Positions 1,540 through 27,062 of a stretch of 30,727 bases of DNA are shown here, in pieces. This DNA is from a virus. A model generated the notes under the pieces. It saw nothing but the letters and a program-made list of their open reading frames with translations, made no database searches and was not told the origin of the DNA. Where the stretch lies: positions 1 to 30,727 of the IMG/VR virus record IMGVR_UViG_3300034073_004624. One strand, 5' to 3'. The stretch's first letter is position 1, and each line of letters opens with the position of its first letter. The position numbers and the translations under genes are program-made.

Positions 1540-4500
1540 ATGGCAAATGAATTTGTGACCAGAAAAGGTCTTATTTCTTTAGGTGGGATATCTTTTCCTT
1601 ACACCCAAAAAACATCAGATTATATTGTAACCTCTGAGGACTACTATGTAGATTGTTCCGGAACTTTCTCCGTTACTCTACCAATATCTGACTCGACTAA
1701 TGTTGGTCGACTTTATGTTATAAAAAATAGTGGTTCTAATCAGGTAACCGTTTTTGCGACCGCCTCGCAATTAATTGATGGTAGTGCTACAAAATCACTT
1801 ATTCAATATGAAAGTCTTCAAATACAGAGTACTGGTAATAATTGGGTTGCATTGTCAGCTGTGGCCGGTACAAGTGGAACTTCTGGATCTTCCGGTACAA
1901 GTGGAACTTCTGGATCTTCCGGTACAAGTGGAACTTCTGGATCTTCCGGTACAAGTGGAACTTCCGGTACAAGTGGAACTTCTGGTTCATCTGGTACAAG
2001 TGGAACTTCTGGTTCATCTGGCACTAGTGGTGTTGATGGAACTTCTGGAACCGGGTTTACTACAATTTCCAATACCGCTGATAATAGAGTATTAACTTCC
2101 GATGGTGCTACTAACTCAGCAAACGCTGAGTCTAATTTGACCTTTGATGGTAATTTACTCTCAGTTAGTGGTAAATTATCGGTTGGTCTGAATACAGTTG
2201 CTTCTGGTACATATTCTTTCGCATCTGGAAGATTCTCGGAATCAGCTGGTGATGCTTCATCAGCATTTGGTAATTCTACTTTTGCTTACGGAACCAACTC
2301 TACTACATTCGGAGAAGAAACATTGGCGTATGGTCAATCACAAATGGTTGTAGGTAAATTCAACTCTGACTTAAACTATGATGATTTATTTGTCATAGGT
2401 AATGGATTAGATAACTCAAATAGAGCAGATTTAGCAAAATTTGGAACTAATTCAATAACTTTCAACTCAAATCTAAGTCTATACTCTTTAGACTTTTCAA
2501 CTCAATCAACAACATCTCAGGAGAGAAGACTTTATTGGGATGATAAAAATAAAACTTTAGCTTTAGGATTGGCTGGTGGTAATGTTAATTTACAAATAGG
2601 TCAGGAAGAGTTTTATTTAGCTTCAAATTATACAGGAGCAACACTATCTAATGGAAAAGTAGTAGGTGCTGTTGGAGTTTCAGCTTCCGGTGATACAATT
2701 AATGCTGGTTATTACTTGGCAGATGGATCTACACCTGGTGAATTCGTAATGGGTATAGTTACCGAGGATATCGCTAATGGTGATAAAGGATACGTAACGG
2801 AATTTGGATTGGTAAGAGGAATAGATACCACAGGTAGTGAGTATAGTGAGTCCTGGCTAGAAGGAGATCTTCTTTACGCATCTCCTACAAATCCTGGAGG
2901 GTTGACTAAAGTAAAACCAACAGCTCCTAATTTGTCAATTTTGACAGCTATTGTAATATCTGCAACATCTTCAGGTTCTATCTTTGTTAGGCCAACTTTC
3001 AATGGTCGATTAGATGATTTGGACAATGTTGAATTCTACGGTGTTACTCCATCACAAGACGATATATTGCAGTATTCTGCAACATCCTCACTTTGGACAA
3101 GAAGAGAGTATAGTTATGGTGCATACGCTGCCGGTGTTATCAGTGGTGCTACAGCTTGGTCACAATCAGGTAATGGTACAATAACACTACCAACTGTCAC
3201 GGTTGCTCTTTATGATAATGAAAACTTCACACCACCTCTTAGGATTTATACTTTAAGTGGAACAGTATCTGGTACTGGTACGACACCAGCTCTAGTTGAT
3301 AATGATACTAATTACATTTCAATAGAGTATAACAATGGTTCACCTATATGGAATATAGACCAGACAGGCACAACTATAAATAACTCAAGTGTCATTAGAT
3401 ACATGATAGTTTATAGATTAGGAAACTTCATACACAATCTCGAGTTTGGAAATCAAGGTTCAGGATTGGTTGAAAAGTTAAACGCTAGAATAATACAAAC
3501 AGAGAGATTTGCTAGAGAGAGTGGTCTAACAATTGGATTAAGTGGATCTACTGGTATTTTGACAATATCAGAAGGTGTCGCATGGAACGGACCATACAGA
3601 CAAAGTTTAGCTAGTGTAAATTCAGCAGATGACTTTATATTTAAAAACTATCATGTTTCTGGAAATTGGACATACTCTGTATCAACCCCATTCACATACT
3701 CAACAACATTAGACCTAATAAATAATGAATTTTATGATGATGGTACAGATTTAGTTTCAGCATCAGCTTCAAAGTATTTAGTAAACTGGTATTATAGAGG
3801 TCAAGAAATTAATGATCACATATATGAGGTCTTTGGAAATGACCAATATGATACATTTGCTGAAGCTGAATTATCAGGAGAACCTTCGATACCTGAGTTA
3901 GTTCAATCACACGCAATTTTAGTTGGTAGAGTAATAGTTCAAGTTGGTACCTATTCAGGAGCGGCTCAGTCAGCATTTGTTTCGGTATTCCAATCCTCAT
4001 CAGTAACATCACATAATGATCTATCTGGTTTACAAGGTGGAATAACCAATGAGTATTATCATCTTTCTCAAGCTGAATATAATAATAATGCATATAAAAA
4101 CGTTGATAACCAATTTACGACAAATCAAACAGTAAATGGATATTTACTTAATACAAATACTTGGACTGAAAGTAATATTCTTATTGCTGGAACCAATTCG
4201 GTAATAGGCTCTGGGGTAACAATAACAGATAGTCTAACATCATCTAATAATTTGTGGACCTCTCAGAAGGTTTATGATTATTCTAATAGAGATACAATAG
4301 AAGGAAATAAAACCTTCTCAGGTGATATTTTAATTCAAGGAACTCTTTCAGTGTTAGATTCATTCACAGCTGGTACTCAATTTACAGTAAATACAAATTC
4401 AGTATTTAATGGTAATATACTACCTTCAATTGATGCTACTTATGACTTGGGTAGTCCTACATTCCAATGGGATAAACTATATGTTGCTTCACAATCACTA

Positions 4501-7500
4501 TATGTTGGTGGCGTGACCATCTCATCTGACAACGATGCTATCAATATTCAAAGATTAAACTTAGGAACCGAAGCTAATCCTGTTATACTTTCTGCTTCTG
4601 GAAGTGAAATTTACATCAATAATTCCATATTCTCATCAGGAGATAGTAAAACAATAATAGTGGCCAAAGATGGAGCTGATTTTACTTCAATTAAAACAGC
4701 TGTTGAGAGCATTACTGATGCGACGGCTTCAAATGTTTATACTGTTGAGGTTAGAGGTGGTGTTTATTATGAAGAACCATTCACTATACCATCCTATGTT
4801 GCGGTAGTTGGTGAGAGTTCAATTTCAACAATAATTGAAGCTACTTTCTCTAACCAAACACTAATAACACTTTCTGATCAGTCCGCTATATTTGATGCTC
4901 AAATTCAAGGATGTACAGGATCAGGAGTCGCTGCTATTGTTTATCAATCATCTACTTCACCACAAGCTCAGGCAATTGCATACGTTGAGAATGTAAGATT
5001 TGGATCTAATTACACACATGTTAAAGTAATAGCTGATGGGGCAAACATTATAGTTCAGTGTTCTAATGTAAAATATGGTGGATATCCATTTACAGAAGGA
5101 TTTGTTGCTACAAACACAGGTTCTGGACAAGGTAGAATGCAGTTAAGAAATGTGACATCCACTAATGGTGGAATAACAACAACAACAAATTTAGTTTTTG
5201 CTAGAGCTATTGCTAGTGGTTGTGGATTTATTGTACAAGGGTGTTTATTGACAAAGGCTGTTGGTGCAGCAGCAGGAACCGGATTCTTAATAGAAAATGG
5301 TGGATTCCTAAGATTAACATCGGTTAATTTCCAAAGATGGTCTAAGGGTATATATGCACCAGCTGATGGTGGATCACCTAATATAGATGCTGTTGGATTG
5401 AACTTTGAGAATAATACAATAGATGTTCAAATTGATAATCCAAATGCAATTGGTAAAATACAAGGAACGGATAATTATTCTAAGACAATAATTAGTCCAA
5501 CTGCATCACTTTATGTTGTATCAAAGGATGCTAGAAGAATACAGGTTGCTAAAAAAGGTGGAGATTTCTCAAGCATAAGAGATGCCGTTTTATCTATAAC
5601 TGACTCTTCAGAGTCGAATAGGTACACTGTGGAAGTTGGACCTGGAGTATTTTATGAAGGTCTAATCGATCTTTCAACAAGACCATATGTCAGTATAGTT
5701 GGTTCAAACATACAAACTACACAAGTTTATGCATCGGCCTCTAATCAAAACCTATTCAAAATGGGTATCGCAAATGAAATATCATTCTTATCAATTAATG
5801 ATGTTGGTACTTTAGGAAGTGGATTTGCAGGAATAATAGCAGATGATAGTGGAGACTTCTCACAAGCTCATAAATTATCTTTCTACAATTGTGATATTGG
5901 TATAAAAGTATTATCAAGTACTCAAGAGACTATTTTCTATGGAGAGTATGTAGATTTCAATGGTACATTTTCACAGGCGGTTTGTGTTGATGCACAAGGA
6001 AGTTCATTTTCAGCATTTGCTAATATAGAAAACTTCTATACATTCCCAGGGTTAACTGGTAGTTTCGCAGGTTGCGTATATGACACAAATGCATCACTAA
6101 ATGTAGCGGTTGCTACACTTGAGGGATTTGGAGATGATGTTGCTTTCTATGTTGAGAATGGTGGAAAACTTGATGTGAACGCAACTGATATTAATGGATA
6201 TCAGACAGGACTTTGGATTCCAAATATTGGAACAGCAAGTAATTTCAACTTTAATGGTGTTGTAATTAATCAGGATGTAACAATACCAATAAAGATTGAA
6301 CAACCAAATACGATTGGATTCTTTCAAGGTTCACTTTACAATCATCAATTAATTGAAAATAATTCCCAGGACATCTACTGGAGTTTCTTGGATCAATTTG
6401 ATGGTGAATTAAATATAACTAGAAAGGCGTCAGTTACATTTGCTGATGGAACTACAACTGATTTGACAACATTAGTTTTCGAGACTGCTCCGATGGGTGT
6501 TATCAGTGGTGGTATTATTTCTACTTTTTCTGGATTAACTGTAAGTATTAGTGCTGGATACGGATATCTTGAAGTTTCATCCGGTGAAGTGCATAAAAGG
6601 ATAGATTGGTCAATATCTACATTACAACTGCCGGACAATTCTTCTGAATACATATTTATCAATGAAAATGAAATTTTAACCAGTCAATCTGGGTTACCAA
6701 ATATAGAAAATAATATACTTTTAGGAAGAGTAGTTACTTTTGGAGGAGATGTTTTATTTATCGATAATACAAGAGTTGACACCAAACATGCTGATAATAA
6801 GCTTAATCTATTTAATAGAAATGCAATTGGTGCAATTTATGAATCTGGATCTATTGTAAGTATAGGTAGTGGTTCTTATTCAATTGATGTTACCGCTGGT
6901 TCATACTGGTTTGGTGATTCTAATTTCACGCCTACTGGTGGTTCTACTGTTTCTTTCACTCAATTTTATAGAGATGGCTCAGGTGAATGGATTATTGGGT
7001 CTACCAACTCTATCACCTCTCAATATGATAGTGGAACAGGTGCTTTAATTACAATGTCAGCTTCCTATTTTACTAAACATACATTGTATGTTGTTGGTGA
7101 GAGTGTAGACGAGAAATATCTACTTGTTGTTGGTCAGGTGCAGTATGAAAATTTAGTAGATGCTGAGGCCGCTTCACTTGCAACACCACCTACATATTTT
7201 GAAGATGGAGTTTCTCCAATAGCCGCTATTTATGTTCAAGAAGGCGGAAATTCAATACTACAAATAGAAGATATTAGGCCAGTATTAGGTTTCAAATCTT
7301 CTGGTGTGAATGCTACTTCTGATCATGGAAATCTGATAGGTCTATCTGATGATGATCATCAACAATACCTTTTGATATCTGGTTCTAGAGCAATGACTGG
7401 AAATTTACAGATGGGTTCTAACTCAATAACTGGAGTTTTACAAGTTAATGGAGTTACAGTAGAATCACACGCCTCAAGACATTTACCTAATGGTGATGAT

Positions 7501-8262
7501 CCAATTGCAACTGGAGCTCCGTCTACTATAGGTACTGCTAATTCAGAAGGAACGGCGAATGCTTTTGCTAGACAAGATCACATTCACGCACATGGTAATC
7601 AATCAGGTGGTAGTTTACACGCTACCGCATCAACTTCAACTGCAGGATTTATGTCTGCTGAAGATAAAACAACATTTGACGCAATTCCAACCACATACTT
7701 AAAACTCACAGGTGGTCAAATCTCAGGATATTTTGGAGTTACTGGATCTTTGGCATTTACATTTAGTAATGGATTACTAACTGATAGCTCAGTAAATGGA
7801 TTCGGACTTAGATACACAACCGATTATAAAAATACATTTACATCTAGTTCATTAGTATCTAAATCCTACGTTGATGAATTGATTACAGGTTCTGTTAGTA
7901 GACTATTAGGTGAAACTACGACTTTATCAAATAGAAGACAATTATTGGAAATTACTACTACTGGTTCCACAACAACAATAGCTACGATATCAGTGCCTCA
8001 GAATACTACTTCTATCTACGAAGTATATGTTTCAGCAACTAGCTCTACTACAGTTTGGGGAGCTTGGAAAAGAGAAATAGTAGTTACTAATCACACAGGA
8101 ACTGCAAATATCGAGTTTGTAAATTCTCAACTAGATAAACAATCTGGATTAATTCCTGCCAATCTATCATTTACATCTTCAACAAGTAACTTATTGATTA
8201 GAGTAACTGGTACATCAGGAACCAATGTCTATTGGACATCAAAACATGAAAGAATAATATAA
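1540..8262 (+). CDS. Giant multidomain tail fibre / adhesin with two beta-helix domains
   Basis: A 2240-residue virion-surface protein. Visible domains in order: an N-terminal ~105-residue domain; a Gly-Thr-Ser/Gly-Ser-Ser collagen-like stretch (about 110-164); a YadA-head-like repeat with AYG, AFG and ASG turns (about 225-277); a long beta-rich middle. Two related segments follow, starting near residues 1037 (TIIVAKDGADFTSIKTAV) and 1332 (RRIQVAKKGGDFSSIRDAV). Each reads like the entry of a right-handed beta-helix of the pectate-lyase/pectinesterase fold. The C-terminal part has HGNLIGLSDDDHQQYL (about 1928) and HLPNGDDPI motifs common in phage fibres. Such beta-helices usually bind or cut surface glycans; catalytic residues cannot be assigned here. 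The start ATG follows an A/T-rich leader behind a promoter-like box. The next gene starts 1 nt after the stop, so the fibre genes are probably co-transcribed. Confidence 0.8.
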   Translation: MANEFVTRKGLISLGGISFPYTQKTSDYIVTSEDYYVDCSGTFSVTLPISDSTNVGRLYVIKNSGSNQVTVFATASQLIDGSATKSLIQYESLQIQSTGNNWVALSAVAGTSGTSGSSGTSGTSGSSGTSGTSGSSGTSGTSGTSGTSGSSGTSGTSGSSGTSGVDGTSGTGFTTISNTADNRVLTSDGATNSANAESNLTFDGNLLSVSGKLSVGLNTVASGTYSFASGRFSESAGDASSAFGNSTFAYGTNSTTFGEETLAYGQSQMVVGKFNSDLNYDDLFVIGNGLDNSNRADLAKFGTNSITFNSNLSLYSLDFSTQSTTSQERRLYWDDKNKTLALGLAGGNVNLQIGQEEFYLASNYTGATLSNGKVVGAVGVSASGDTINAGYYLADGSTPGEFVMGIVTEDIANGDKGYVTEFGLVRGIDTTGSEYSESWLEGDLLYASPTNPGGLTKVKPTAPNLSILTAIVISATSSGSIFVRPTFNGRLDDLDNVEFYGVTPSQDDILQYSATSSLWTRREYSYGAYAAGVISGATAWSQSGNGTITLPTVTVALYDNENFTPPLRIYTLSGTVSGTGTTPALVDNDTNYISIEYNNGSPIWNIDQTGTTINNSSVIRYMIVYRLGNFIHNLEFGNQGSGLVEKLNARIIQTERFARESGLTIGLSGSTGILTISEGVAWNGPYRQSLASVNSADDFIFKNYHVSGNWTYSVSTPFTYSTTLDLINNEFYDDGTDLVSASASKYLVNWYYRGQEINDHIYEVFGNDQYDTFAEAELSGEPSIPELVQSHAILVGRVIVQVGTYSGAAQSAFVSVFQSSSVTSHNDLSGLQGGITNEYYHLSQAEYNNNAYKNVDNQFTTNQTVNGYLLNTNTWTESNILIAGTNSVIGSGVTITDSLTSSNNLWTSQKVYDYSNRDTIEGNKTFSGDILIQGTLSVLDSFTAGTQFTVNTNSVFNGNILPSIDATYDLGSPTFQWDKLYVASQSLYVGGVTISSDNDAINIQRLNLGTEANPVILSASGSEIYINNSIFSSGDSKTIIVAKDGADFTSIKTAVESITDATASNVYTVEVRGGVYYEEPFTIPSYVAVVGESSISTIIEATFSNQTLITLSDQSAIFDAQIQGCTGSGVAAIVYQSSTSPQAQAIAYVENVRFGSNYTHVKVIADGANIIVQCSNVKYGGYPFTEGFVATNTGSGQGRMQLRNVTSTNGGITTTTNLVFARAIASGCGFIVQGCLLTKAVGAAAGTGFLIENGGFLRLTSVNFQRWSKGIYAPADGGSPNIDAVGLNFENNTIDVQIDNPNAIGKIQGTDNYSKTIISPTASLYVVSKDARRIQVAKKGGDFSSIRDAVLSITDSSESNRYTVEVGPGVFYEGLIDLSTRPYVSIVGSNIQTTQVYASASNQNLFKMGIANEISFLSINDVGTLGSGFAGIIADDSGDFSQAHKLSFYNCDIGIKVLSSTQETIFYGEYVDFNGTFSQAVCVDAQGSSFSAFANIENFYTFPGLTGSFAGCVYDTNASLNVAVATLEGFGDDVAFYVENGGKLDVNATDINGYQTGLWIPNIGTASNFNFNGVVINQDVTIPIKIEQPNTIGFFQGSLYNHQLIENNSQDIYWSFLDQFDGELNITRKASVTFADGTTTDLTTLVFETAPMGVISGGIISTFSGLTVSISAGYGYLEVSSGEVHKRIDWSISTLQLPDNSSEYIFINENEILTSQSGLPNIENNILLGRVVTFGGDVLFIDNTRVDTKHADNKLNLFNRNAIGAIYESGSIVSIGSGSYSIDVTAGSYWFGDSNFTPTGGSTVSFTQFYRDGSGEWIIGSTNSITSQYDSGTGALITMSASYFTKHTLYVVGESVDEKYLLVVGQVQYENLVDAEAASLATPPTYFEDGVSPIAAIYVQEGGNSILQIEDIRPVLGFKSSGVNATSDHGNLIGLSDDDHQQYLLISGSRAMTGNLQMGSNSITGVLQVNGVTVESHASRHLPNGDDPIATGAPSTIGTANSEGTANAFARQDHIHAHGNQSGGSLHATASTSTAGFMSAEDKTTFDAIPTTYLKLTGGQISGYFGVTGSLAFTFSNGLLTDSSVNGFGLRYTTDYKNTFTSSSLVSKSYVDELITGSVSRLLGETTTLSNRRQLLEITTTGSTTTIATISVPQNTTSIYEVYVSATSSTTVWGAWKREIVVTNHTGTANIEFVNSQLDKQSGLIPANLSFTSSTSNLLIRVTGTSGTNVYWTSKHERII
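1867..2031 (+). repeat. Tandem Gly-Thr-Ser coding repeat (27-bp units)
   Basis: Three near-identical 27-bp units, starting GGTACAAGTGGAACTTCTGG at 1867, 1894 and 1921, are followed by shorter and variant copies. They encode GTSGTSGSS. The DNA repeat could change length by slippage, altering fibre length. Confidence 0.85.
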
Positions 8263-12915: not shown

Positions 12916-14613
12916 ATGGCTTCTTATAATAACTTCAATAGCTCTTCAAATACCGGTGGTTTTATTCAAAATTCAGCTGTTGAAAACAAAGGTTTATTCA
13001 GTAGAATACTAAGAAATCTATCATCATATGGTATGAATTATGATGATATGATTATTCGTAATCAAGTTGGTATTGGTGTTAATGAAGATCCATATGCTGC
13101 AAGAGGAAATTCAATGTATGATTTTTTTTCACAGAGAGCTGTAGCTTCTGTTTTGAATCGAAAATCAATTCCTTATTTAGATAAATCTTATGCTGATAAA
13201 AGAAGAATTTTAAGAGAGTATTCTATAAAAGATGAGATACGAGACTTTGTAAGTTCTCTTTCAGATGAATGTATTATTTACAATGATGAGAGAGATTTTT
13301 GTTTTCCAAAAAAAATATCAAATGAATATCCTCAGGAAATTCAAGATAAATATCAAGAATACTTTGAAAAAGTCTATATTAAGTATGGATTTAGTGATAA
13401 TATCAGTGCTTGGAGTATGATGAAAGACTTCCTTATTGATGGTTATTTAGCAGTAGAGATAGTCTATGATGATAAAAAGAAAAATATTATTGCTTTCAAT
13501 AGATTAAGACCTGAGACTTTAGTTCCAGCATATGAACCAAATGTTGGTCATCTTTGGATTCAATTTCCAGAAGATCCACAATTAAGAAGAATATTTTTAG
13601 ATTCTCAAATTGTTTTTATTTCTTACTCTTCTCAGAACGATTATAGTGAGACTTCCTATGTTGAGGGTTTAATTAAACCATATAATCAGTTAAAGATTTT
13701 AGAACAAACTAGAATTATGTTTAACGTTATTAATGCTACTATGTATCAAAAGTTTACTATACCAATTAAAGGTATGTCAAGACAAAGAGCTGAAGAGCAA
13801 ATTGGGCAATTGATACAGGATTACTCAGAGGAAGTAGAATGGGATGATACACTTGGTACGTTAAGCATCAATGGTTCAAAACATTTACCTTATAATAAGC
13901 AGATTTGGTTTCCTGATGGTGATGCTGGTACACCTAATATGGAATTAGTTAGTCAAGAAGGTCATAACTTGAATGAACAGGATATGTTGACTTGGTTTTT
14001 TAATGCTCTTAAAAGAGCGTCGAGAATACCACTTCAAAGATTTGAAAAAGAAAGTGGTGGTGGTAATTTAATTACTGATGCTGCTGAGATGACAAGAGAT
14101 GAGATTAAGTTTTATAATTTTATCAATAGAATAAGGGCTAATTTCAAAGAGTTAATAGTTAAGCCTCTTAAATTACAAATGTTAATTGAATTTCCAGAAT
14201 TAAAAGATGATGAGGTTTTCATAAATCAAATAGACATTGGATTCAATACTAATCAAGTTTTTGAAGAGTGGAAGAAACTGAATAATATGAGTAAGAAGGC
14301 CGAGATTTTTGGAACTTTAATTGGTATTATGAATGGTGAAAAGCCTTATTTCCATATCGAGTATTTAATTGATAATGTTTTCAAACTTACGGCTGAAGAA
14401 AAGGCTGAGAATCAAAAGTATTGGGCTAAGGATGCGGCCGCTGCTGGTGCCGCTGCTCCCGCTGAGGGTGGTGCTCCTGCTGAAGGTGGTGGTGAAGCTC
14501 CTCCTGCTGAGGGTGGTGAAGCTCCTCCTGCTGAGGGTGGTGGTGAAGCTCCTCCTGCTGAGGGTGGTGGTGAAGCTCCTCCTGCTGAAGGTGGTGGTGA
14601 ATTTGAATTTTAA
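12916..14613 (+). CDS. Portal vertex protein, T4 gp20-like
   Basis: 565 residues, close to T4 gp20 in length. The dodecameric portal nucleates the prohead, is the DNA entry channel and connects to the tail. Recognisable stretches are LSDECIIYNDERDFCFP, the wing/stem region with DGYLAVEIVYD and LRPETLVPAYEP, and DMLTWFFNALKRASRIPLQR, which corresponds to the conserved gp20 segment around the stem and tunnel loop. Odd feature: from about residue 510 the protein ends in an Ala/Pro/Glu/Gly repeat (units EGGGEAPPA), absent from T4 gp20 as far as I know, finishing GGGEFEF. The gene follows its own promoter and ends in a strong terminator. Synteny (portal, then protease/scaffold, then capsid) supports the call strongly. 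Confidence 0.9.
   Translation: MASYNNFNSSSNTGGFIQNSAVENKGLFSRILRNLSSYGMNYDDMIIRNQVGIGVNEDPYAARGNSMYDFFSQRAVASVLNRKSIPYLDKSYADKRRILREYSIKDEIRDFVSSLSDECIIYNDERDFCFPKKISNEYPQEIQDKYQEYFEKVYIKYGFSDNISAWSMMKDFLIDGYLAVEIVYDDKKKNIIAFNRLRPETLVPAYEPNVGHLWIQFPEDPQLRRIFLDSQIVFISYSSQNDYSETSYVEGLIKPYNQLKILEQTRIMFNVINATMYQKFTIPIKGMSRQRAEEQIGQLIQDYSEEVEWDDTLGTLSINGSKHLPYNKQIWFPDGDAGTPNMELVSQEGHNLNEQDMLTWFFNALKRASRIPLQRFEKESGGGNLITDAAEMTRDEIKFYNFINRIRANFKELIVKPLKLQMLIEFPELKDDEVFINQIDIGFNTNQVFEEWKKLNNMSKKAEIFGTLIGIMNGEKPYFHIEYLIDNVFKLTAEEKAENQKYWAKDAAAAGAAAPAEGGAPAEGGGEAPPAEGGEAPPAEGGGEAPPAEGGGEAPPAEGGGEFEF
14461..14601 (+). repeat. Imperfect 24-27-bp tandem repeat encoding EGGGEAPPA
   Basis: Repeated units of the type GAGGGTGGTGGTGAAGCTCC encode a Glu-Gly-Gly-Gly-Glu-Ala-Pro-Pro-Ala tail at the C-terminus of the portal. 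It is far more GC-rich than the surrounding sequence. Expected to be disordered. Confidence 0.85.
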
Positions 14614-14622
14614 TAGAATAAA

Positions 14623-14649
14623 AAAACCTATCATTTTGATAGGTTTTAT
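14623..14649. terminator. Bidirectional intrinsic terminator after portal gene
   Basis: Stem AACCTATC / GATAGGTT with loop ATTTT, flanked by a run of A on the left and TTTT on the right. It serves the portal transcript on one strand and, because the reverse-strand gene stops at 14646, probably that gene on the other. Confidence 0.8.
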
Positions 14650-15023
14650 TGTTTTCTGGATATATTATCAACTCCGTATTTCTCAATTAGAGTTGATTTC
14701 ATTTTGTTCAAAACTTTTTTATTTTGTATTGGATAATCAACACCAAAGTTTTTTTGTAAGGTTTTTTTCCTCTTATACTCTGAACATCTTCTACATAAAT
14801 ACTCTCCCCATTTATTATCATATTTTATGTAATTTTTGAATATTACGGATTTTTCTATTCCACAGTTATCGCATTTGCAAACTATTTTATAATGAGAACC
14901 TTTTGACATTAATTCAATCGGAATGATAACTTCTTCTCCTATTGTTACGTCATAACCTAAATCTTCGTAGTAGTGATAATTGGACTCACTTATTTTTATT
15001 GTTATTTCTCTTGTTAGAATCAT
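14646..15023 (-). CDS. Zinc-ribbon protein of homing-endonuclease type (DUF723-like), probably reduced
   Basis: 125 residues, opposite in strand to the head genes it interrupts. CKCDNCG (about residues 49-55) and, 24 residues later, CRRC give four zinc-binding cysteines. They are followed by TLQKNFGVDYPIQNKKVLNK and TLIEKYGVDNIS, the Tyr/Phe-Gly-Val-Asp repeat typical of DUF723-type DNA-binding segments of phage homing endonucleases. Nothing after the repeat resembles a nuclease domain and the frame ends at SRKQ, so this is either a truncated free-standing homing endonuclease or a DNA-binding remnant. Its placement between portal and protease genes, on the other strand, fits insertion of a selfish gene. 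DNA-binding type is fairly secure; nuclease activity is doubtful. Confidence 0.6.
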   Translation of the reverse strand: MILTREITIKISESNYHYYEDLGYDVTIGEEVIIPIELMSKGSHYKIVCKCDNCGIEKSVIFKNYIKYDNKWGEYLCRRCSEYKRKKTLQKNFGVDYPIQNKKVLNKMKSTLIEKYGVDNISRKQ

Positions 15024-15180: not shown

Positions 15181-17346
15181 ATGAAACCGGTTCTAATCGT
15201 AGAAAATTCAACTTCTTCTCTTCTCAGAGAGAATAATAGTGGCAGAAAAGATTATGTGTTAGGTGGTACTTTTACAGAGTTTGGTGTTAAAAACCGTAAC
15301 GAAAGAGTATATACAGCAGATAAATTTCTTCCAGCATTAGATGAACTTAATGAGAGAATGAAAACGCTTGGTGCAGTTTACGGAGAATTCGATCATCCAG
15401 ATGTTTTTGATACATCTTTATCAAGAGCATCACACGTTATCACAAAGGCAGAATACTTAAAAGAATCCAATAAAGTTACTGGTGAAATCAGACTACTTAG
15501 TACATATTGGGGTAAAGAAGCTAAGTCTTTGGTAGATGATGGATGTCCTGTCTTCGTATCTTCAAGAGCGGCTGGTGTTACAGAGTCTGATGGTTCTGTT
15601 TCTCTAAAAAAATTGTTCACATATGACATCGTTGCTGACCCAGGTTTTGCTTCTGCAAAAATGAGTGTTAAAAGTCTTAACGAGTCACTTGGATACAACC
15701 CAAAATCTAACTTTAGGATATATGAAATGTCCGATGAGTCCAAAATAAATGAACTATTCAATATGAATAAAGATGAATTTGTAACAAAAAAACAATTAAC
15801 TGATTACTCTAAATATTTAGTTAATGAATTAGCTTCTACAAAGAAAGAAGTTAAGAGTGCAATTTCAAAAGGGAATATGAATCCTAAGAAATTGGAGCAG
15901 TTACTTGAATACTACGAAGAATTAAATAAGACAAACGGTCAAGTTGTTAAATACTTAGACTATTTGGCTGAGAAAGTACAAGTAATGGTAAATGAAAACA
16001 AGTCTTTAAAAGCGACTACTGATAAACTTATTAAACACAATGATTATTTAGCAGAGAATTTAGAAAAAGCGGTAAACTATTCTGAATACTTAGCAGAAAA
16101 TCTTGACAAAAACATTGAGTATTCTGAATACTTAGCAGAAAACTTAGATAGAAATATTTCTTATTCTGAGTATATCGCTGAAAATTTAGATAAAAACATT
16201 TCTTATTCTGAATACTTAGCAGAAAACTTAGATAAGAATATTGCTTACTCTGAGTATATCGCAGAAAACTTAGATAAGAATATCGCTTATTCTGAGTATA
16301 TCGCAGAAAACTTAGACAAAAACATTGGATATTCTGAATATTTAGCTGAGCATGTTGACAATTCAATTGCTTATTCTGAATATTTAGCTGAGCATGTTGA
16401 AGGTAACATCGCTTACTCTGAATACATTGCTGAACATTTAGATGATAACATTGCTTATTCTGAGTATATCGCAGAAAATCTTGATAAATCAATTTCTTAT
16501 CAGTCACTAATTACTGAAAAATTAAATGGTACAAGATTAAACGAAAATAATGATCATGACGCTTTACCTGGAGTAAATGTTGTTGGTATTGAAAATGTTG
16601 AAGATGCTGACAATGATGATAATTGTGGACCAGTTAAAAATAATGATGGAGACGATGATGATGCTGACTTAGCTGGTATCAGTCATGGTAATCCAGAAAA
16701 TAAATGGAATAAAGAAAATAATGATGGAGACGGTGATGCTGATGGAGATGCTGATGCTGATGCTGATGGAGACGGAGCTTATGGACATGATGGTGCACAT
16801 AACAACGCTCACTTAGAAGGTAACTCTGATTCTGAATTATCAAAATCTATTAATAAATTAATTGAAGAAGCTAAAAAACGTAAAGTTTCTGAAACAACTG
16901 ACTTGAATTTCTTAAAGTTCTTAAACAAGTCACAAGTTGATAGCTTTTATGCACTTACAGAGAGTGAACAAGAAACTGTTAAACTTCACATAAACGAAAG
17001 AAGTTATTTCACACAAAAAGAAGTATTGTCTCTAATTGCAGAAGCTTTGTCTACAAAGAATGAATCTATCGAAGAAAGAGTAATCAGATTGATGCCTGAA
17101 AACATTAAGCCAATCTGGAATCAGTTAAATGAGTCTTCTAAAAAATCAGTGCTTTCACAAGCTAGATTATATCCAGAAGATGTATTAAAAACTGAAAATC
17201 AAGTTGAACATTTCTGGTTAACCAGAAATCTCAAAAAAAATGAGTCTGTAACTAAAAAGTTAGTAGCACACGAAAGTTTAATACAAGAAGATAAACTTTC
17301 AGATAAAGATGTGAAAGCTATTATGGAAAGATTCAAAACAATTTAA
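15181..17346 (+). CDS. Prohead protease (gp21-like) fused to scaffold/core protein (gp22-like)
   Basis: 721 residues. Residues ~25-165 are a T4 gp21-type serine protease: VKNRNERVY, then GEFDHPD with catalytic His about 72, and VFVSSRAAG with Ser 127 or 128. The rest looks like an internal scaffold. Charged helices come first, then eleven 14-residue repeats of type YSEYLAENLDKNIA (286-439), a very acidic Asp/Gly/Ala segment (about 475-545) and a helical C-terminal domain. In T4, protease (gene 21) and scaffold (gene 22) are separate. Each repeat contains LAE or IAE, the T4 protease cleavage consensus (L/I)xE; IVE8-N9 and LRE17-N18 near the N-terminus are candidate self-processing sites. It lies between portal and capsid genes, exactly where 21 and 22 belong. 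Protease identity is confident; scaffold role is inferred from position and composition. Confidence 0.85.
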   Translation: MKPVLIVENSTSSLLRENNSGRKDYVLGGTFTEFGVKNRNERVYTADKFLPALDELNERMKTLGAVYGEFDHPDVFDTSLSRASHVITKAEYLKESNKVTGEIRLLSTYWGKEAKSLVDDGCPVFVSSRAAGVTESDGSVSLKKLFTYDIVADPGFASAKMSVKSLNESLGYNPKSNFRIYEMSDESKINELFNMNKDEFVTKKQLTDYSKYLVNELASTKKEVKSAISKGNMNPKKLEQLLEYYEELNKTNGQVVKYLDYLAEKVQVMVNENKSLKATTDKLIKHNDYLAENLEKAVNYSEYLAENLDKNIEYSEYLAENLDRNISYSEYIAENLDKNISYSEYLAENLDKNIAYSEYIAENLDKNIAYSEYIAENLDKNIGYSEYLAEHVDNSIAYSEYLAEHVEGNIAYSEYIAEHLDDNIAYSEYIAENLDKSISYQSLITEKLNGTRLNENNDHDALPGVNVVGIENVEDADNDDNCGPVKNNDGDDDDADLAGISHGNPENKWNKENNDGDGDADGDADADADGDGAYGHDGAHNNAHLEGNSDSELSKSINKLIEEAKKRKVSETTDLNFLKFLNKSQVDSFYALTESEQETVKLHINERSYFTQKEVLSLIAEALSTKNESIEERVIRLMPENIKPIWNQLNESSKKSVLSQARLYPEDVLKTENQVEHFWLTRNLKKNESVTKKLVAHESLIQEDKLSDKDVKAIMERFKTI
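16036..16497 (+). repeat. Eleven 42-bp (14-residue) scaffold repeats
   Basis: Eleven in-register copies encode a consensus YSEYLAENLDKNIA (the first is HNDYLAENLEKAVN; the eleventh ends DKSIS). All eleven keep (L/I)-A-E; eight are followed by Asn and three by His. Codons vary between copies, so the protein sequence, not the DNA, is being conserved. Confidence 0.9.
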
Positions 17347-17424: not shown

Positions 17425-19119
17425 ATGTCACACATTAGAATAGACAAACAAAAAGCAGTTAAGAAATGGGCTCCAGTGTTGGAGAACATGGGTGTAACTG
17501 GTGAGAGAGTTGACTGGATGGCTGAATACGCTGAGTTCCACTCAATTAATGAAAATGCATACGTAAACGCTTCTAACGTAGCGGGTATGGGTGCTGTTTT
17601 TAATCCAACTGTAGGTACATTAGCTGGTAGCCCAACATTAGGTGGAGCACTTGCTGGTTCTGGAGATGTAGGTCAAAACTTACTTCCTGTAGCTATGAAA
17701 ATTGCAGCTCAAACAATCGGTTTAGATTTAGTAGCTGTAAAACCTTCTCCAGGTCCAAAAATTGACTTACTTTATATCGATTTCCGTTATGACGATACTC
17801 GTGAAGGTAACTTAGATGAGAGACCACAAGTTTTCAAATTTAATCAAACTACTTGGTTATCTGCTATTCAAGCAGCAATCAGAGCTGATTTAACTGTTGC
17901 TGGTGGTGCTCCTGCTGCTATTAGCGAATCAACTGGTGGTTTATCAAACGGTAGAGTATGGTATAATATCAATGATGGTAGTGTAACTTATACTGATCCA
18001 GGTTCTGGTTCAAAAGCTAACTTAGTTGAGTTCTTAGGTTTCTCTCGTATTGATGGTTATCCAATGTTCAGAGCTTACAGACAAAATAATACAGCTCATA
18101 CAGCTACTAACCCAGCTGGTGGTTCTACATTATGGTCATTTGATGCTACTAGAAATACATTCAATGCAACACAGTCAATGACTGATCAAATCGTATTAAT
18201 CGCTGGTGTTACTGCTTCGGGTGGTGCTGTTGAATTAGTATCTGCTCTTGAAGATCATATCCCAGGTTTCTCTGCAAACTGGACATCTGCATCTTCTGGA
18301 AGTGCTGCTGGTTCTTATCCAATGTCTCGTCAAGATGATGATGATACATATGCAGGTGTTATTGGTCCTAAGATTTCTTCTAAAACTATCGCAGTTGGTA
18401 CTATTGAAGTATCTTCAGCTTTAAGAAGAACTGAAATCGAAGATATCAAAGCTAACACAGGTATGGATATCGTTCAAAAAATGGAATCTATCTTAGTTAA
18501 TGAATTATCTCAAACAATCTCTAAGCAAATTGTTGCTAAGATTTTTGAAATGGGTGCGTTAAACAGATCTACTGCTCCTTTAAGAAGTGGTGCATCTATC
18601 TTTGACTTAGATACAAATTATGCATATGGTGCTTCTAGTCCGGGTGGTGAAACTACACACGCGGTTCAACGTAAGTTAATCACTAAGATTGCTCACGCTT
18701 CTAACTATATCGCAACTGAAGGTCGTGTTGGTCCTGCTCAATACCTTATCACAAACGGGGGTCTTGCAGCTGCTTTATCTGATATTGCTGGTTATACAAT
18801 TAACCCTTTAAAATCTAAAATGAATACACAAGGTCAACTTTACCCAGTTGGTTCAATCGGTGATATTTCAATTTATGTTGACCCATATATGAAGTACAAC
18901 GATAACAGAATCGTTTTAGGTCGTAAAAATAATCCTGACCAACCAGGTATCATTTTCGTTCCTTACTTAATGGCTCAGTCTATTTCGGTTATCTCTGAAG
19001 CTACATTCGCTCCAAGAATGTTGTTAAGAAGCCGTTACGCTGTAGCAGAAGTAGGTTGGTTCCCACAAAAACAGTTCATGCAAATCAATGTAACTGATGG
19101 ACAAGGATTTCTTAACTAA
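17425..19119 (+). CDS. Major capsid protein, T4 gp23-like
   Basis: 564 residues, slightly longer than T4 gp23. The N-terminus KAVKKWAPVLENMGV matches the start of T4 gp23 (LLNKWKPLLEGEGL). SINE41-43 before Asn 44 is a candidate propeptide cleavage site of the (L/I)xE type, ahead of YVNASNVAGMG, which resembles T4 mature-region sequence. The C-terminal half has the gp23-like stretches TIEVSSALRRTEIEDIKANTG and YLITNGGLAAALSD. An insertion-like segment (about 170-310, Gly/Ser/Thr/Ala-rich) may be a surface domain. Codon use differs from its neighbours, with many CGT arginine and GGT/GCT codons instead of AGA/GGA, as expected of a very highly expressed gene. Strong promoter before, strong terminator after. 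Confidence 0.93.
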   Translation: MSHIRIDKQKAVKKWAPVLENMGVTGERVDWMAEYAEFHSINENAYVNASNVAGMGAVFNPTVGTLAGSPTLGGALAGSGDVGQNLLPVAMKIAAQTIGLDLVAVKPSPGPKIDLLYIDFRYDDTREGNLDERPQVFKFNQTTWLSAIQAAIRADLTVAGGAPAAISESTGGLSNGRVWYNINDGSVTYTDPGSGSKANLVEFLGFSRIDGYPMFRAYRQNNTAHTATNPAGGSTLWSFDATRNTFNATQSMTDQIVLIAGVTASGGAVELVSALEDHIPGFSANWTSASSGSAAGSYPMSRQDDDDTYAGVIGPKISSKTIAVGTIEVSSALRRTEIEDIKANTGMDIVQKMESILVNELSQTISKQIVAKIFEMGALNRSTAPLRSGASIFDLDTNYAYGASSPGGETTHAVQRKLITKIAHASNYIATEGRVGPAQYLITNGGLAAALSDIAGYTINPLKSKMNTQGQLYPVGSIGDISIYVDPYMKYNDNRIVLGRKNNPDQPGIIFVPYLMAQSISVISEATFAPRMLLRSRYAVAEVGWFPQKQFMQINVTDGQGFLN

Positions 19120-19622: not shown

Positions 19623-20963
19623 ATGGCTGAAATTAAACCCATCTTCACAGAAGAATTACAAAAAATTCTAAAAGAATTAGAATCAGAAAATAACTATGTT
19701 GCTTTTGAGTTGATGTGGATGTCTGAACCAGATTCTAAATTTCATAACGGATTAAGAATATCAAAAGTAGATGTTTCTAAGCAGGATTATTGCTTTGATG
19801 TTACTATTGATGGTAAAACACATCCAATGAAAATTGGAAAGTTTATAAGATACTTTTTAGCTAATATTATAAAGGATAATGAGGCTGTTGAATTTTCAAA
19901 ACTTTATAATAATCTTAAAAAAGGTGAAAAGATACAATCCGGAACTCCTATTACTATTGATAAGTTTTCTTACAATCCAAGAGATGTTAAAGCAACTTTT
20001 CTTTCTTTGGTTACAAAAACTTATCCTCATGGACATGAAGAAGAAGTATTACAATTTTTACCGGGACTTAAAAAAGATCAATTTGGTAACTACTATAAAA
20101 TAATAGGTAATATACAACCTCAAACTATGTTTACCTCGCATTTAGACACCGCAGATAGACAGCAAAAAGTTACAAAACTTTTTTCTATGGTTGAAGATGG
20201 TGAAGAATATATTTATACTGATGAAAGTACTATATTAGGCGCTGATGATAAGTCTGGTGTTGTGGTGATGTTATATATGATGACATATAATATACCAGGT
20301 CTTTATTATTTCTTTATTGGTGAAGAAAGAGGTGGAATCGGTTCTAATGCATTGGCTTCTATTTTTGACCAAATTGATTATTTGAAGAATGTCAAAAGAT
20401 GTATATCTTTTGATAGAAGAAACTATCACTCTGTTATCACAAGTCAATTAGGAAGAACTTGTTGTTCTAATGAGTTTGGAAATGCACTTTGTGATGAATA
20501 TAATAGAAATGGATTAAGTTTATCTTTAGATAATACAGGTATTTACACAGATTCTGCATCTTTTATGGATGATATTAGAGAATGTACTAATATATCTGTT
20601 GGTTATTTTAATGAACATACTGGAAAAGAATATCAAAATATAACTTACTTAAAGAATCTTTGTGAAGCTTCTGTTAAGGTTAATTGGAATTCTTTGCCTT
20701 CTGTTAGAAAGGCTGGATTAAATGAGGAAGTTATGAAAAAACACAGATTGCTTATCCAAGATATAAAAAAATCTGTTTTTGACTTAGAAACAAAAATAGT
20801 TGGTGAAGAAGGTAGAGTGTTTATCAGAGTTGATTTAGATGAGACTGACGTTGACGCTATTTCCAATGGCTTAAACATGGTTGATAGTATTCTTACTAAA
20901 CATAAAATTAACAACAATGATGTAGTATTTACCAATACTTACATGAAAATAGAATTAAGATAA
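19623..20963 (+). CDS. M20/M28-family-like zinc metallopeptidase
   Basis: 446 residues. The catalytic part starts near residue 120. SHLDT (172-176) supplies the first His and Asp, GADDKSG (206-212) the bridging Asp, GEERGG (233-238) the catalytic Glu and a zinc-ligand Glu, SFDRR (about 262-266) a further Asp, and NEHTGKEYQN a late His. This is the full metal-ligand order of di-zinc M20/M28/M42 peptidases, typically amino- or carboxypeptidases acting on short peptides. An N-terminal ~118-residue extension (VAFELMWMSEPDSKF) is unrelated to the peptidase core and unidentified. No signal peptide, so cytoplasmic. The next gene begins 1 nt after the stop. Peptidase class is secure; subfamily and substrate are open. 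A role in trimming rescued nascent peptides is only inferred from neighbours. Confidence 0.8.
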   Translation: MAEIKPIFTEELQKILKELESENNYVAFELMWMSEPDSKFHNGLRISKVDVSKQDYCFDVTIDGKTHPMKIGKFIRYFLANIIKDNEAVEFSKLYNNLKKGEKIQSGTPITIDKFSYNPRDVKATFLSLVTKTYPHGHEEEVLQFLPGLKKDQFGNYYKIIGNIQPQTMFTSHLDTADRQQKVTKLFSMVEDGEEYIYTDESTILGADDKSGVVVMLYMMTYNIPGLYYFFIGEERGGIGSNALASIFDQIDYLKNVKRCISFDRRNYHSVITSQLGRTCCSNEFGNALCDEYNRNGLSLSLDNTGIYTDSASFMDDIRECTNISVGYFNEHTGKEYQNITYLKNLCEASVKVNWNSLPSVRKAGLNEEVMKKHRLLIQDIKKSVFDLETKIVGEEGRVFIRVDLDETDVDAISNGLNMVDSILTKHKINNNDVVFTNTYMKIELR

Positions 20964-22428: not shown

Positions 22429-23373
22429 ATGGCGGCAATAAGTTATTTTGGAGGCAAAAGCTCAAATGTATTCATAGAATTCATTAATAAAAAAATACCT
22501 AAAACAGGAATAAAGACCTATTTAGAACCATTCTCTGGTTCAATGGGAACATATATGGATGATGATAATCTTAAGTTTGATATTGTTATCTATAATGATA
22601 AAAATCGCCACCAGGTTAACCTATATAAGTGTTGTTCACAACCTGATAAGTTCTTACCTTATTTAGATAATCTAAAAAAGACATTATTATATACAACAGA
22701 AACAGATCCATTGAAAAAATGGGACTTCTACAAAAAAATTTATAAAGATTATCAAAAGAATAATTTCCTAGATGATATGAATTTTGAAATTGGTGATTTT
22801 GAGAAAGCTTCAATTTATGCTTTTCTTATCACATCTGCTCATAATTCTGTTTATCCTCGTGGTGCGGGATTCAATGGGTATAAAAAAGATAAAGATAAAC
22901 TTAAATTAGAAGTCCTTATTGATAAATTAAAGAAGAATAAATATACTTCAAAACTTCAGTCTATTACTGATTTCTTTAATGAAGATTTTGAATCTCTTAT
23001 TAAGAGATATGATTCGGAAGATACTTACATATATTTAGATCCTCCGTATGCTAGATTTGATGATAAAAAGGGAGAAGATGATGCTAAAAGATTATTCTGG
23101 TATGGCGCTGATGCTGATGGTGTATTTGGACCAGCTTCTCATAGAAGACTTTTGGAGTTAATTAAAACAACAAAATCTCGTTGGTCACTTTCTTATTATT
23201 ATTTTCCTTTATTGGAAGAATTATTACCGAAAGACAAATATATTTGGACTGAAAAAGAGGTATTTAGAAGTTCTGCTCAAGGTGGTAATAATGCTGATAC
23301 CAAAAAAGAACAATCCAAAGGTGTTGAACTTTTAATTTTGAATTATGATCCACAGACCGGTAAAAAATTATAA
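22429..23373 (+). CDS. DNA adenine-N6 methyltransferase, Dam/D12 class
   Basis: 314 residues. ISYFGGKSS (4-12) and YLEPFSGSMG (about 31-40) form the AdoMet-binding motifs X and I of the D12 class; YNDKNRHQVNLY matches the conserved Asn-Asp segment; YLDPPYARF (DPPY at 204-207) is catalytic motif IV. PRGAGFNGY sits in the expected target-recognition region. It transfers methyl from AdoMet to the N6 of adenine in a short site (GATC in Dam; the site here cannot be read). T4 also has a Dam; in phages such enzymes block host restriction or mark phage DNA. The insert around FDDKKGEDDAKRLFWYG after motif IV is longer than I remember for Dam. No cognate nuclease gene is nearby, so it appears to be an orphan enzyme. 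Confidence 0.9.
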   Translation: MAAISYFGGKSSNVFIEFINKKIPKTGIKTYLEPFSGSMGTYMDDDNLKFDIVIYNDKNRHQVNLYKCCSQPDKFLPYLDNLKKTLLYTTETDPLKKWDFYKKIYKDYQKNNFLDDMNFEIGDFEKASIYAFLITSAHNSVYPRGAGFNGYKKDKDKLKLEVLIDKLKKNKYTSKLQSITDFFNEDFESLIKRYDSEDTYIYLDPPYARFDDKKGEDDAKRLFWYGADADGVFGPASHRRLLELIKTTKSRWSLSYYYFPLLEELLPKDKYIWTEKEVFRSSAQGGNNADTKKEQSKGVELLILNYDPQTGKKL

Positions 23374-25925: not shown

Positions 25926-27062
25926 ATGAAAATTAAACTTGAATACATTTGGTTAGATGGATCTAATCCCCAACAATTGCGAAGCAAAACTAAAATAACA
26001 AATCAACAGCATGGATTGGATGCAACAAAATATGATATCTGGTCTTTTGATGGTAGCTCAACAAATCAGGCTAAATCCGGTAAAGGAAAAAATACAGATT
26101 GTTTACTAAAACCAGTTTTTGTATCTGATGATCCATTCAGAGGAAGTCCACATAAATTGGTCCTTTGTGAGGTTCTTACTCCAGAAGGAAATCCACATCC
26201 TTCAAATCACAGAAGATCATTAGAAGCACTTTTAAACGAGTTGAATCTTGGAGGTGCAGATAAGTTTGCAGGAACTGATTGGTCAAATATATATGAATCC
26301 TTCAAAAAAGATTCGCCTTGGTTTGGATGGGAACAAGAATATACACTAACTCATAAACCAAATTCACCATTTTCGGCTGGTATTGGAATTCCTTTAGGAT
26401 TCTCATCAGACTATCACAATCCTATTAAGACACCTCGTCCTCAAGGCGATTATTATTGTGGTGTGGGTGCTGATACGGTTGTAGGTAGAGAAATCGTTGA
26501 GGAGCATATGGATAAATGTATAGAAATTGGTCTATGTATTTCTGGAATTAATGCTGAGGTGTTATTAGGTCAATGGGAATATCAAATTGGACCGGTTACT
26601 GCATTGAACGGATCTGATCAATTATGGATATCTCGATATATTCTTCAGAGAGTCGCTGAAAAGCACAATATAAATGTGTCTTTGCATCCAAAACCAATTA
26701 AAGGAGATTGGAACGGAACTGGTTGTCATGTCAATTTCTCAACAAAAGAAATGAGAGAAAAAGGTGGTTTATCTTTAATAAAAGAAACTATGGAAAAACT
26801 TAAAGAAAATCATAGAAATCATATCGAAGTTTATGGTCTACATAATGAAGAAAGATTGACTGGTGAACACGAGACCTCTGGTATTAATGATTTTAGCTTT
26901 GGATTTTCAACTCGTGATACTTCTATACGTATACCAGCTCAATCAATTATTGATGAAAGAGGATATTTTGAAGACAGGAGACCAGCCTCAAACTGCGATC
27001 CATATTTAGTTGCAGCTAGAATGTTAAAAACTGTTTACTCTGAAGTAAATCAAGAGGCTTAA
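25926..27062 (+). CDS. Glutamine synthetase, type II (GSII)
   Basis: 378 residues, full length for GSII. Makes glutamine from glutamate, ammonia and ATP. The N-terminal beta-grasp region has LEYIWLDGS, LRSKTK and WSFDGSSTNQAKS. The catalytic part has WFGWEQEYTL, YYCGVGADTVVGREIVEEH, GINAEVLLGQWEYQIGP, GDWNGTGCHVNFST, RLTGEHET, STRDTSIRIPA and FEDRRPASNCDPY. Metal-binding Glu residues, the His of the NGTGCHVN segment and the Arg residues of the phosphate site are all present, so it should be active. The type I adenylylation loop is absent, as expected for GSII, so regulation would differ from enteric GS. It is monocistronic, with an A-rich leader and strong terminator. An auxiliary metabolic gene that could raise glutamine supply for nucleotide synthesis during infection; host origin is likely but not tested. 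Confidence 0.95.
   Translation: MKIKLEYIWLDGSNPQQLRSKTKITNQQHGLDATKYDIWSFDGSSTNQAKSGKGKNTDCLLKPVFVSDDPFRGSPHKLVLCEVLTPEGNPHPSNHRRSLEALLNELNLGGADKFAGTDWSNIYESFKKDSPWFGWEQEYTLTHKPNSPFSAGIGIPLGFSSDYHNPIKTPRPQGDYYCGVGADTVVGREIVEEHMDKCIEIGLCISGINAEVLLGQWEYQIGPVTALNGSDQLWISRYILQRVAEKHNINVSLHPKPIKGDWNGTGCHVNFSTKEMREKGGLSLIKETMEKLKENHRNHIEVYGLHNEERLTGEHETSGINDFSFGFSTRDTSIRIPAQSIIDERGYFEDRRPASNCDPYLVAARMLKTVYSEVNQEA

Follow-up and report, generated by a model that had tools for sequence, protein, structure and literature searches.

Does this phage build a head scaffold that is cut up, repeat by repeat, by a protease carried on the same polypeptide? The question comes from a stretch of 30,727 nucleotides of viral DNA (here called the window), in which a sequence-only reading had taken a run of 14-residue repeats to be a built-in shredding device. 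We consider it probable, and the best reading of this locus, that the repeats form a helical scaffold rod that is cut by its own fused protease. The ORF that holds them appears to join a prohead protease to a scaffold in a huge T4-like phage, with regularly placed predicted cut sites, and so a form of the T4-like scheme. The portal gene lies upstream of this ORF and the capsid gene downstream, as follows:

12916..14613, plus strand: portal (gp20-like; Pfam Portal_T4, 1.7e-54)
15181..17346, plus strand: fused prohead protease-scaffold ORF (T4 gp21 plus gp22-like), 721 aa
15181..15660, plus strand: protease domain, residues 1-160, with invariant H72, S127, and D149 (phrog_207, fold, and alignment)
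17425..19119, plus strand: major capsid protein (MCP; gp23-like; Pfam Gp23, 5.8e-28)

That a protease shares the polypeptide with the repeats was borne out. The ORF matches phrog_207 (head maturation protease, a profile of 519 positions) with E=2e-30, the match reaching residue 296. The best fold for an AF2 model of residues 1-200 (pLDDT 77) was that of T4 gp21 (5JBL; Z 15.6, rmsd 2.3 over 132 residues), followed by herpesvirus proteases, the best of them with Z 10.3 and the others lower; Foldseek matched the same model to the T4 gp21-type fold at E 5e-6. Pfam S77 scored 2.9e-5 and 24.1 bits on the window protein, below the gathering score of 27, and reached E<=0.001 in 23 of 30 relatives (best, 1.3e-15). 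Alignment to T4 gp21 and to the corresponding proteins of GAP32, PA5oct, P-TIM40, pT24, PAU, and Lak-A2 shows His72, Ser127, and Asp149 to be invariant. The phrog_207 match, the fold match, and these invariant residues support a T4 gp21-like domain (S77/S80 clan) with a predicted herpesvirus-protease-like fold. Prohead proteases differ in specificity, with S/A-x-E used in phiKZ and A-x-E in SPN3US (PMC9026906, PMC5694885), and for that reason we can only infer, from the conserved sites described below, that the window protease would cut after L/I-x-E.

Only six of 50,697 phage records carry the array, all from uncultured phages of 462-735 kb, and our literature search turned up nothing on the repeats or on proteolysis of the head in phages of this kind. 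The comparison drew on eighty close relatives from IMG/VR and 62 further loci; those with the full gene split into clade A (the window's own), clade B (its sister, resembling a 735-kb phage), and clade C (diverged, with 33-37% identity, and resembling a 462-kb phage). The close relatives of the window are phages of 634-735 kb. In the window, the array and its upstream flank are laid out as follows:

15952-15993, plus strand: upstream degenerate unit with LAE264, a twelfth LAE unit (YLDYLAEKVQVMVN)
15994-16035: degenerate unit without the motif (ENKSLKATTDKLIK), between the twelfth LAE unit and the array
16036..16497, plus strand: array of eleven 14-residue units, consensus YSEY(L/I)AENLDKNIx, with one [LI]AE per unit

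The eleven units fill 16036-16497 (plus strand) exactly. Units 1-6 are HNDYLAENLEKAVN, YSEYLAENLDKNIE, YSEYLAENLDRNIS, YSEYIAENLDKNIS, YSEYLAENLDKNIA, and YSEYIAENLDKNIA, and units 7-11 are YSEYIAENLDKNIG, YSEYLAEHVDNSIA, YSEYLAEHVEGNIA, YSEYIAEHLDDNIA, and YSEYIAENLDKSIS. Every one contains LAE or IAE (11/11), and the next residue is Asn in eight units and His in three, just as the sequence-only reading had counted. The array extends slightly past these limits on both sides; downstream it is trailed by a half-unit carrying ITE446, after which LNE455 follows. As a repeat it exceeds chance and is real at the DNA level (TRF period 42/84/126, 73-79% matches). The His-type units, HVDNS, HVEGN, and HLDDN (16330-16455), are tied to particular positions and are conserved in most of clade A, whereas the Asn-type units are interchangeable; this hints at a distinct role or slower cleavage for the His type. 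An antisense ORF at 16031-16507 (158 aa) was read as a by-product of the repeat. Matches of the repeats to Pfam PSCyt2 and DUF7603 were below the gathering score and were set aside as coiled-coil noise, and PDB sequence matches to the designed coiled coils 8qkd and 4tql reflect a helix pattern common to both rather than homology.

Whether the motif within these units means anything is a separate matter. Counting motifs inside the array is not informative, since the mirror motif, Ex[LI], is commoner there than [LI]xE (19 versus 11). When a single unit is shuffled and repeated in tandem, [LI]xE appears in about 43% of cases (P = 0.43), and the motif in the array alone exceeds chance only weakly. 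One can therefore envision that one ancestral unit had LAE by chance and was then copied, and the presence of the motif in one unit is indeed easily due to chance. However, the units have diverged in their DNA to the 73-79% matches given above, both Glu codons are mixed among them, and the Glu at position 7 of the unit (Glu7) is kept while other positions vary. We have rejected a chance origin as a full account of the array, given that Glu7 persists amid this divergence, and we regard such a coincidence as very improbable.

Support for a cleavage function comes instead from the comparison of relatives. Of 634 proper units in clade A, 633 have Glu7, encoded by GAA in 409 and by GAG in 224, and it is kept in all 173 units that lack Lys or Arg at position 11. 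Neither recent duplication, given the mixed codons, nor an i,i+4 salt bridge, given its retention without Lys/Arg11, explains Glu7. At 3.5 residues per helical turn, position 14 comes to lie at the same angle as Glu7 (257 degrees), across from the hydrophobic face. In clades A and B, entropy within the unit peaks at position 14 and is among the lowest at Glu7; these values are biased at positions 1 and 4 and mildly biased at 7 because proper units were picked by their residues at positions 1 and 4 together with a profile that includes position 7.

A purely structural array is the rival that these data bear on most directly. Here Glu7, Tyr4, and Ala6 would pack the rods together or against the shell, and the likeness to L/I-x-E would be incidental. 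The period of 14 residues is exactly two heptads, and hydrophobicity in the array is periodic at 3.5 (strong) and 4.67 residues, which favors this rival; in clade A, conservation of Ala6 and Ile13 comes close to that of Glu7. The enrichment of the mirror motif, and the ease with which chance supplies one motif per unit, also suit a structural role. We agree that, in addition to any role as a substrate, the array most likely serves as a helical rod. A full-length AF2 model places helices at residues 203-449 with low confidence (array pLDDT about 50); because it is of low confidence outside the protease, this model was not used for rod structure. Nevertheless, packing alone does not readily account for a Glu7 that faces away from the hydrophobic side while its partner on the wheel is the most variable position, nor for what is seen in clade C and just past the end of the array, and we think it unlikely that the array is structural only.

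In clade C, position 5 (P3) is only Val, Ile, or Leu, position 6 (P2) is free (2.7 bits), and position 7 (P1) is Glu in 56 of 77 units (73%). A hydrophobic P3, a free P2, and a P1 that is mostly Glu have the shape expected of a hydrophobic-x-Glu protease site, which argues for more than structure. The same clade sets a limit on the original proposal, which had a site in every unit. The remaining 27% of clade C units lack Glu (for example, YAEYVGLKTDQNIE; one relative, L083, has units with YVAN, YIAN, and HIAN), and strict [LI]xE is found in only 44%, compared to [LIVM]xE in 99.8% of clade A units and 95% of clade B units. A site per unit thus characterizes clades A and B but does not hold for the whole family. 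The units without Glu retain Tyr/His1, Tyr/His4, and a hydrophobic residue at position 5, and so the Glu is dispensable for the structural signature of the unit. One check named in the sequence-only reading was whether repeat number varies among relatives while the Glu motif stays. Unit number does vary, from about 5 to 16 by automatic count, and Glu is nearly invariant in clade A and its sister, but not in clade C.

Outside the array, four candidate cut sites (the arrow marks the predicted cut) are conserved:

15223..15231, plus strand: LRE17↓N, N-terminal candidate self-cleavage site (compare T4 gp21 residue 9)
15676..15684, plus strand: LNE168↓S, protease/scaffold junction, with N167 and E168 invariant in 29/29
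16537..16545, plus strand: LNE455↓N, directly after the array, with E455 invariant in 29/29
17545..17553, plus strand: INE43↓N, predicted maturation site of the major capsid protein, [IML]xE↓[NS]

The first of these reads [LIV]xE↓[NSAE] in each of the 21 sequences from clades A and B (alignment A3) and is absent from clade C; in T4, a nine-residue N-terminal self-cleavage of gp21 has been proposed (PMC9958956). E168 is invariant also in T4 (ITE↓S), GAP32, PA5oct, P-TIM40, pT24, PAU, and Lak-A2. The proteases of phiKZ and SPN3US have been shown to process themselves at the C terminus, and T4 gp21 has been suggested to do the same (PMC9026906, PMC5694885). If E168 is the conserved position for such processing, the fusion puts the scaffold right behind the enzyme's own exit site. 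E455 sits in an otherwise poorly alignable linker, with L/I/V at P3 and S/N/A/G/T at P1′; at both E168 and E455, P3 is always L, I, or V. The capsid site recurs as [IML]xE↓[NS] near residue 43 in every recognized MCP N terminus in the three clades, and would be the counterpart of the cleavage by which T4 gp23 loses its 65-residue propeptide (PMC9958956). The conserved sites outside the array have Val or Met besides Leu/Ile at P3. With Val occurring there, the units with VAE, about 10% of those in clade A, are plausible substrates. His at P1′ is found in none of the presumed natural sites, and this counts against cleavage at the three window units that have it. With a gp21-like protease fused to the repeats and the same hydrophobic-x-Glu at the capsid protein, the junction, and the end of the array, the shredding proposal is partly supported; a site in every unit, taken as a rule of the family, is not.

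The boundary sites could also be the whole story, with cuts only at E17, E168, E455, and the capsid protein and the array released as one or a few pieces that leave the head or stay in it. The sites kept in all clades are indeed E168, E455, and the MCP site, and the segments around E17 and E168 have pLDDT under 50 (AF2), while the units are predicted to be helical. Helices are poor substrates for proteases as long as they stay intact and packed, and for this reason the helical prediction for the array, of low confidence as it is, counts against cleavage within it. Against so restricted a pattern of cutting, however, stand the near-invariant Glu7 of clade A, which it leaves unexplained, and the degradation of T4 gp22 to small peptides (PMC9958956). 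We find cutting at the boundaries alone quite improbable, and less so the purely structural array.

Cleavage of the rod by the fused protease also fits with what is seen in other T4-like scaffolds. T4 gp21 cuts after L/I-x-E, and the breakdown of gp22 into small peptides, to which the sequence-only reading had likened the repeats, was already known (PMC9026906, PMC9958956). T4 gp22 (269 residues) contains 16 [LI]xE compared to 5.8 expected, and 6 Ex[LI] compared to 5.6 expected, with [LI]xE spacings of 5-29 residues and a mean of about 15. The same directional excess is present in the scaffolds of GAP32 and pT24 and is weaker in PA5oct, P-TIM40, and AG-345. The window scaffold has 27 [LI]xE sites versus 10.3 expected; outside the array, the counts are 16 versus 5.9 expected for [LI]xE and 9 versus 6.0 for Ex[LI]. 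Enrichment is absent or weak in the portal and capsid proteins (portal, 4 versus 7.9 expected). A high density of cut sites is thus general in T4-like scaffolds, and what sets the array apart is its regularity, at almost the same mean spacing. The array is the less novel for this, and the likeness supports reading it as a cleavage substrate. Residues 297-721 had no match among the scaffold families of Pfam or PHROG. The scaffold occupies the position of T4 gp22 between protease and capsid protein, here in the same ORF as the protease and followed by the gp23-like MCP. The remainder of the scaffold consists of two parts:

16546..16857, plus strand: low-complexity acidic linker, with no [LIVM]xE between E455 and E562
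16828..17346, plus strand: C-terminal helical domain, AF2 helices at residues 550-720, conserved in all three clades

The linker (pLDDT under 50 at residues 448-550) bears on the claim that the core would be cut into 14-mers. With an acidic stretch of about 107 residues lacking a site, the protein would not become 14-mers throughout.

In the reading that we favor, the repeats would build a long amphipathic helical rod, two heptads per unit, as part of the prohead core, and Glu7, with the hydrophobic residue two before it, would be the cut site of each unit for the fused protease. Once the prohead is complete, the protease would free itself at LNE168↓S, where gp21 enzymes encoded on their own have a conserved C-terminal site, and, in most of the family, also at E17. 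It would then cleave at E455 and within many units of the array, letting the core exit as small peptides, and trim the capsid protein at INE43↓N. The acidic stretch from E455 to E562 would stay in one piece.

In its gene order of portal-protease-scaffold-capsid protein, its 5JBL fold, and a scaffold dense in [LI]xE, the locus resembles T4, and candidate self-processing sites are conserved at both ends of the protease, as in gp21. The differences are that T4 protease and scaffold are separate genes, made in about 55-100 copies of gp21 and about 580 of gp22 (PMC9958956, PMC5694885), and that the gp22 sites are irregular, with no 14-residue array. Closer in layout are Tenacibaculum phage pT24 and Prevotella phage Lak-A2, in which a single ORF has a gp21-like domain and then a scaffold-like tail; both lack the 14-residue repeat array, although [LI]xE is enriched in the fused ORF of pT24, and the Lak tail is mostly acidic. 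Herpesvirus UL26 assemblin, lambda C/Nu3, and P2 gpO likewise combine protease and scaffold in one polypeptide, from which the protease is released by self-cleavage, but their cut sites are few and they have no array. In the herpesvirus and lambda systems, a nested gene additionally supplies scaffold without the protease. A nested start comparable to that of lambda Nu3 was not recognizable in the window ORF, which has in-frame ATGs at residues 161, 183, 195, and 233. The starts of the 14 ORFs inspected lack Shine-Dalgarno leaders and have A+T-rich leaders instead, so that an internal start may yet exist. The T4 late promoter core, TATAAATA, was not above chance (8 versus 6 expected).

To our knowledge, only the outlines are known of how phages clear a very large protein core ahead of packaging, and these come from T4 and phiKZ-like phages. 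A more specific idea, which we put forward tentatively and would not call probable, is that the array is a programmed disassembly element, made of 14-residue modules that are each a structural step with a single cut site and that would yield uniform 14-mers. If so, adding or removing modules would change the length of the rod but not the size of the waste product, an arrangement that might benefit very large heads. If each module has one cut site and shares a chain with the protease, the link between core length, site density, and clearance would become directly testable. The comparison also provides predicted head cleavage sites for uncultured phages of 462-735 kb.

Other features of the window were seen along the way. 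Between the portal and protease-scaffold genes lies a 125-residue ORF (14646-15023, minus strand) with a partial DUF7487 match (8.9e-7), and the gap between these genes in relatives ranges from 37 to 2237 bases, a variation that suggests mobile insertions in the head gene cluster. The C-terminal tail of the portal (14445-14601) is repetitive, with about six copies of APPAEGGGE, and the portal of one relative (L081) has a different, Gly/Gln-rich tail. Shortly past the capsid gene, 19623-20963 encodes a peptidase-like protein (phrog_4191, 2.6e-67; weak Pfam M28), and a D12-class adenine methyltransferase (Pfam, 5e-14) is found at 22429-23373. A 2240-residue ORF at 1540-8262 is probably a tail or fiber protein; it contains a collagen-like repeat (Pfam, 5.1e-7) and, close to the start, tandem repeats of 27 bases. 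The ORF at 25926-27062 has both glutamine synthetase domains (Pfam, 7e-18 and 2e-8), an unexpected cargo near head genes.
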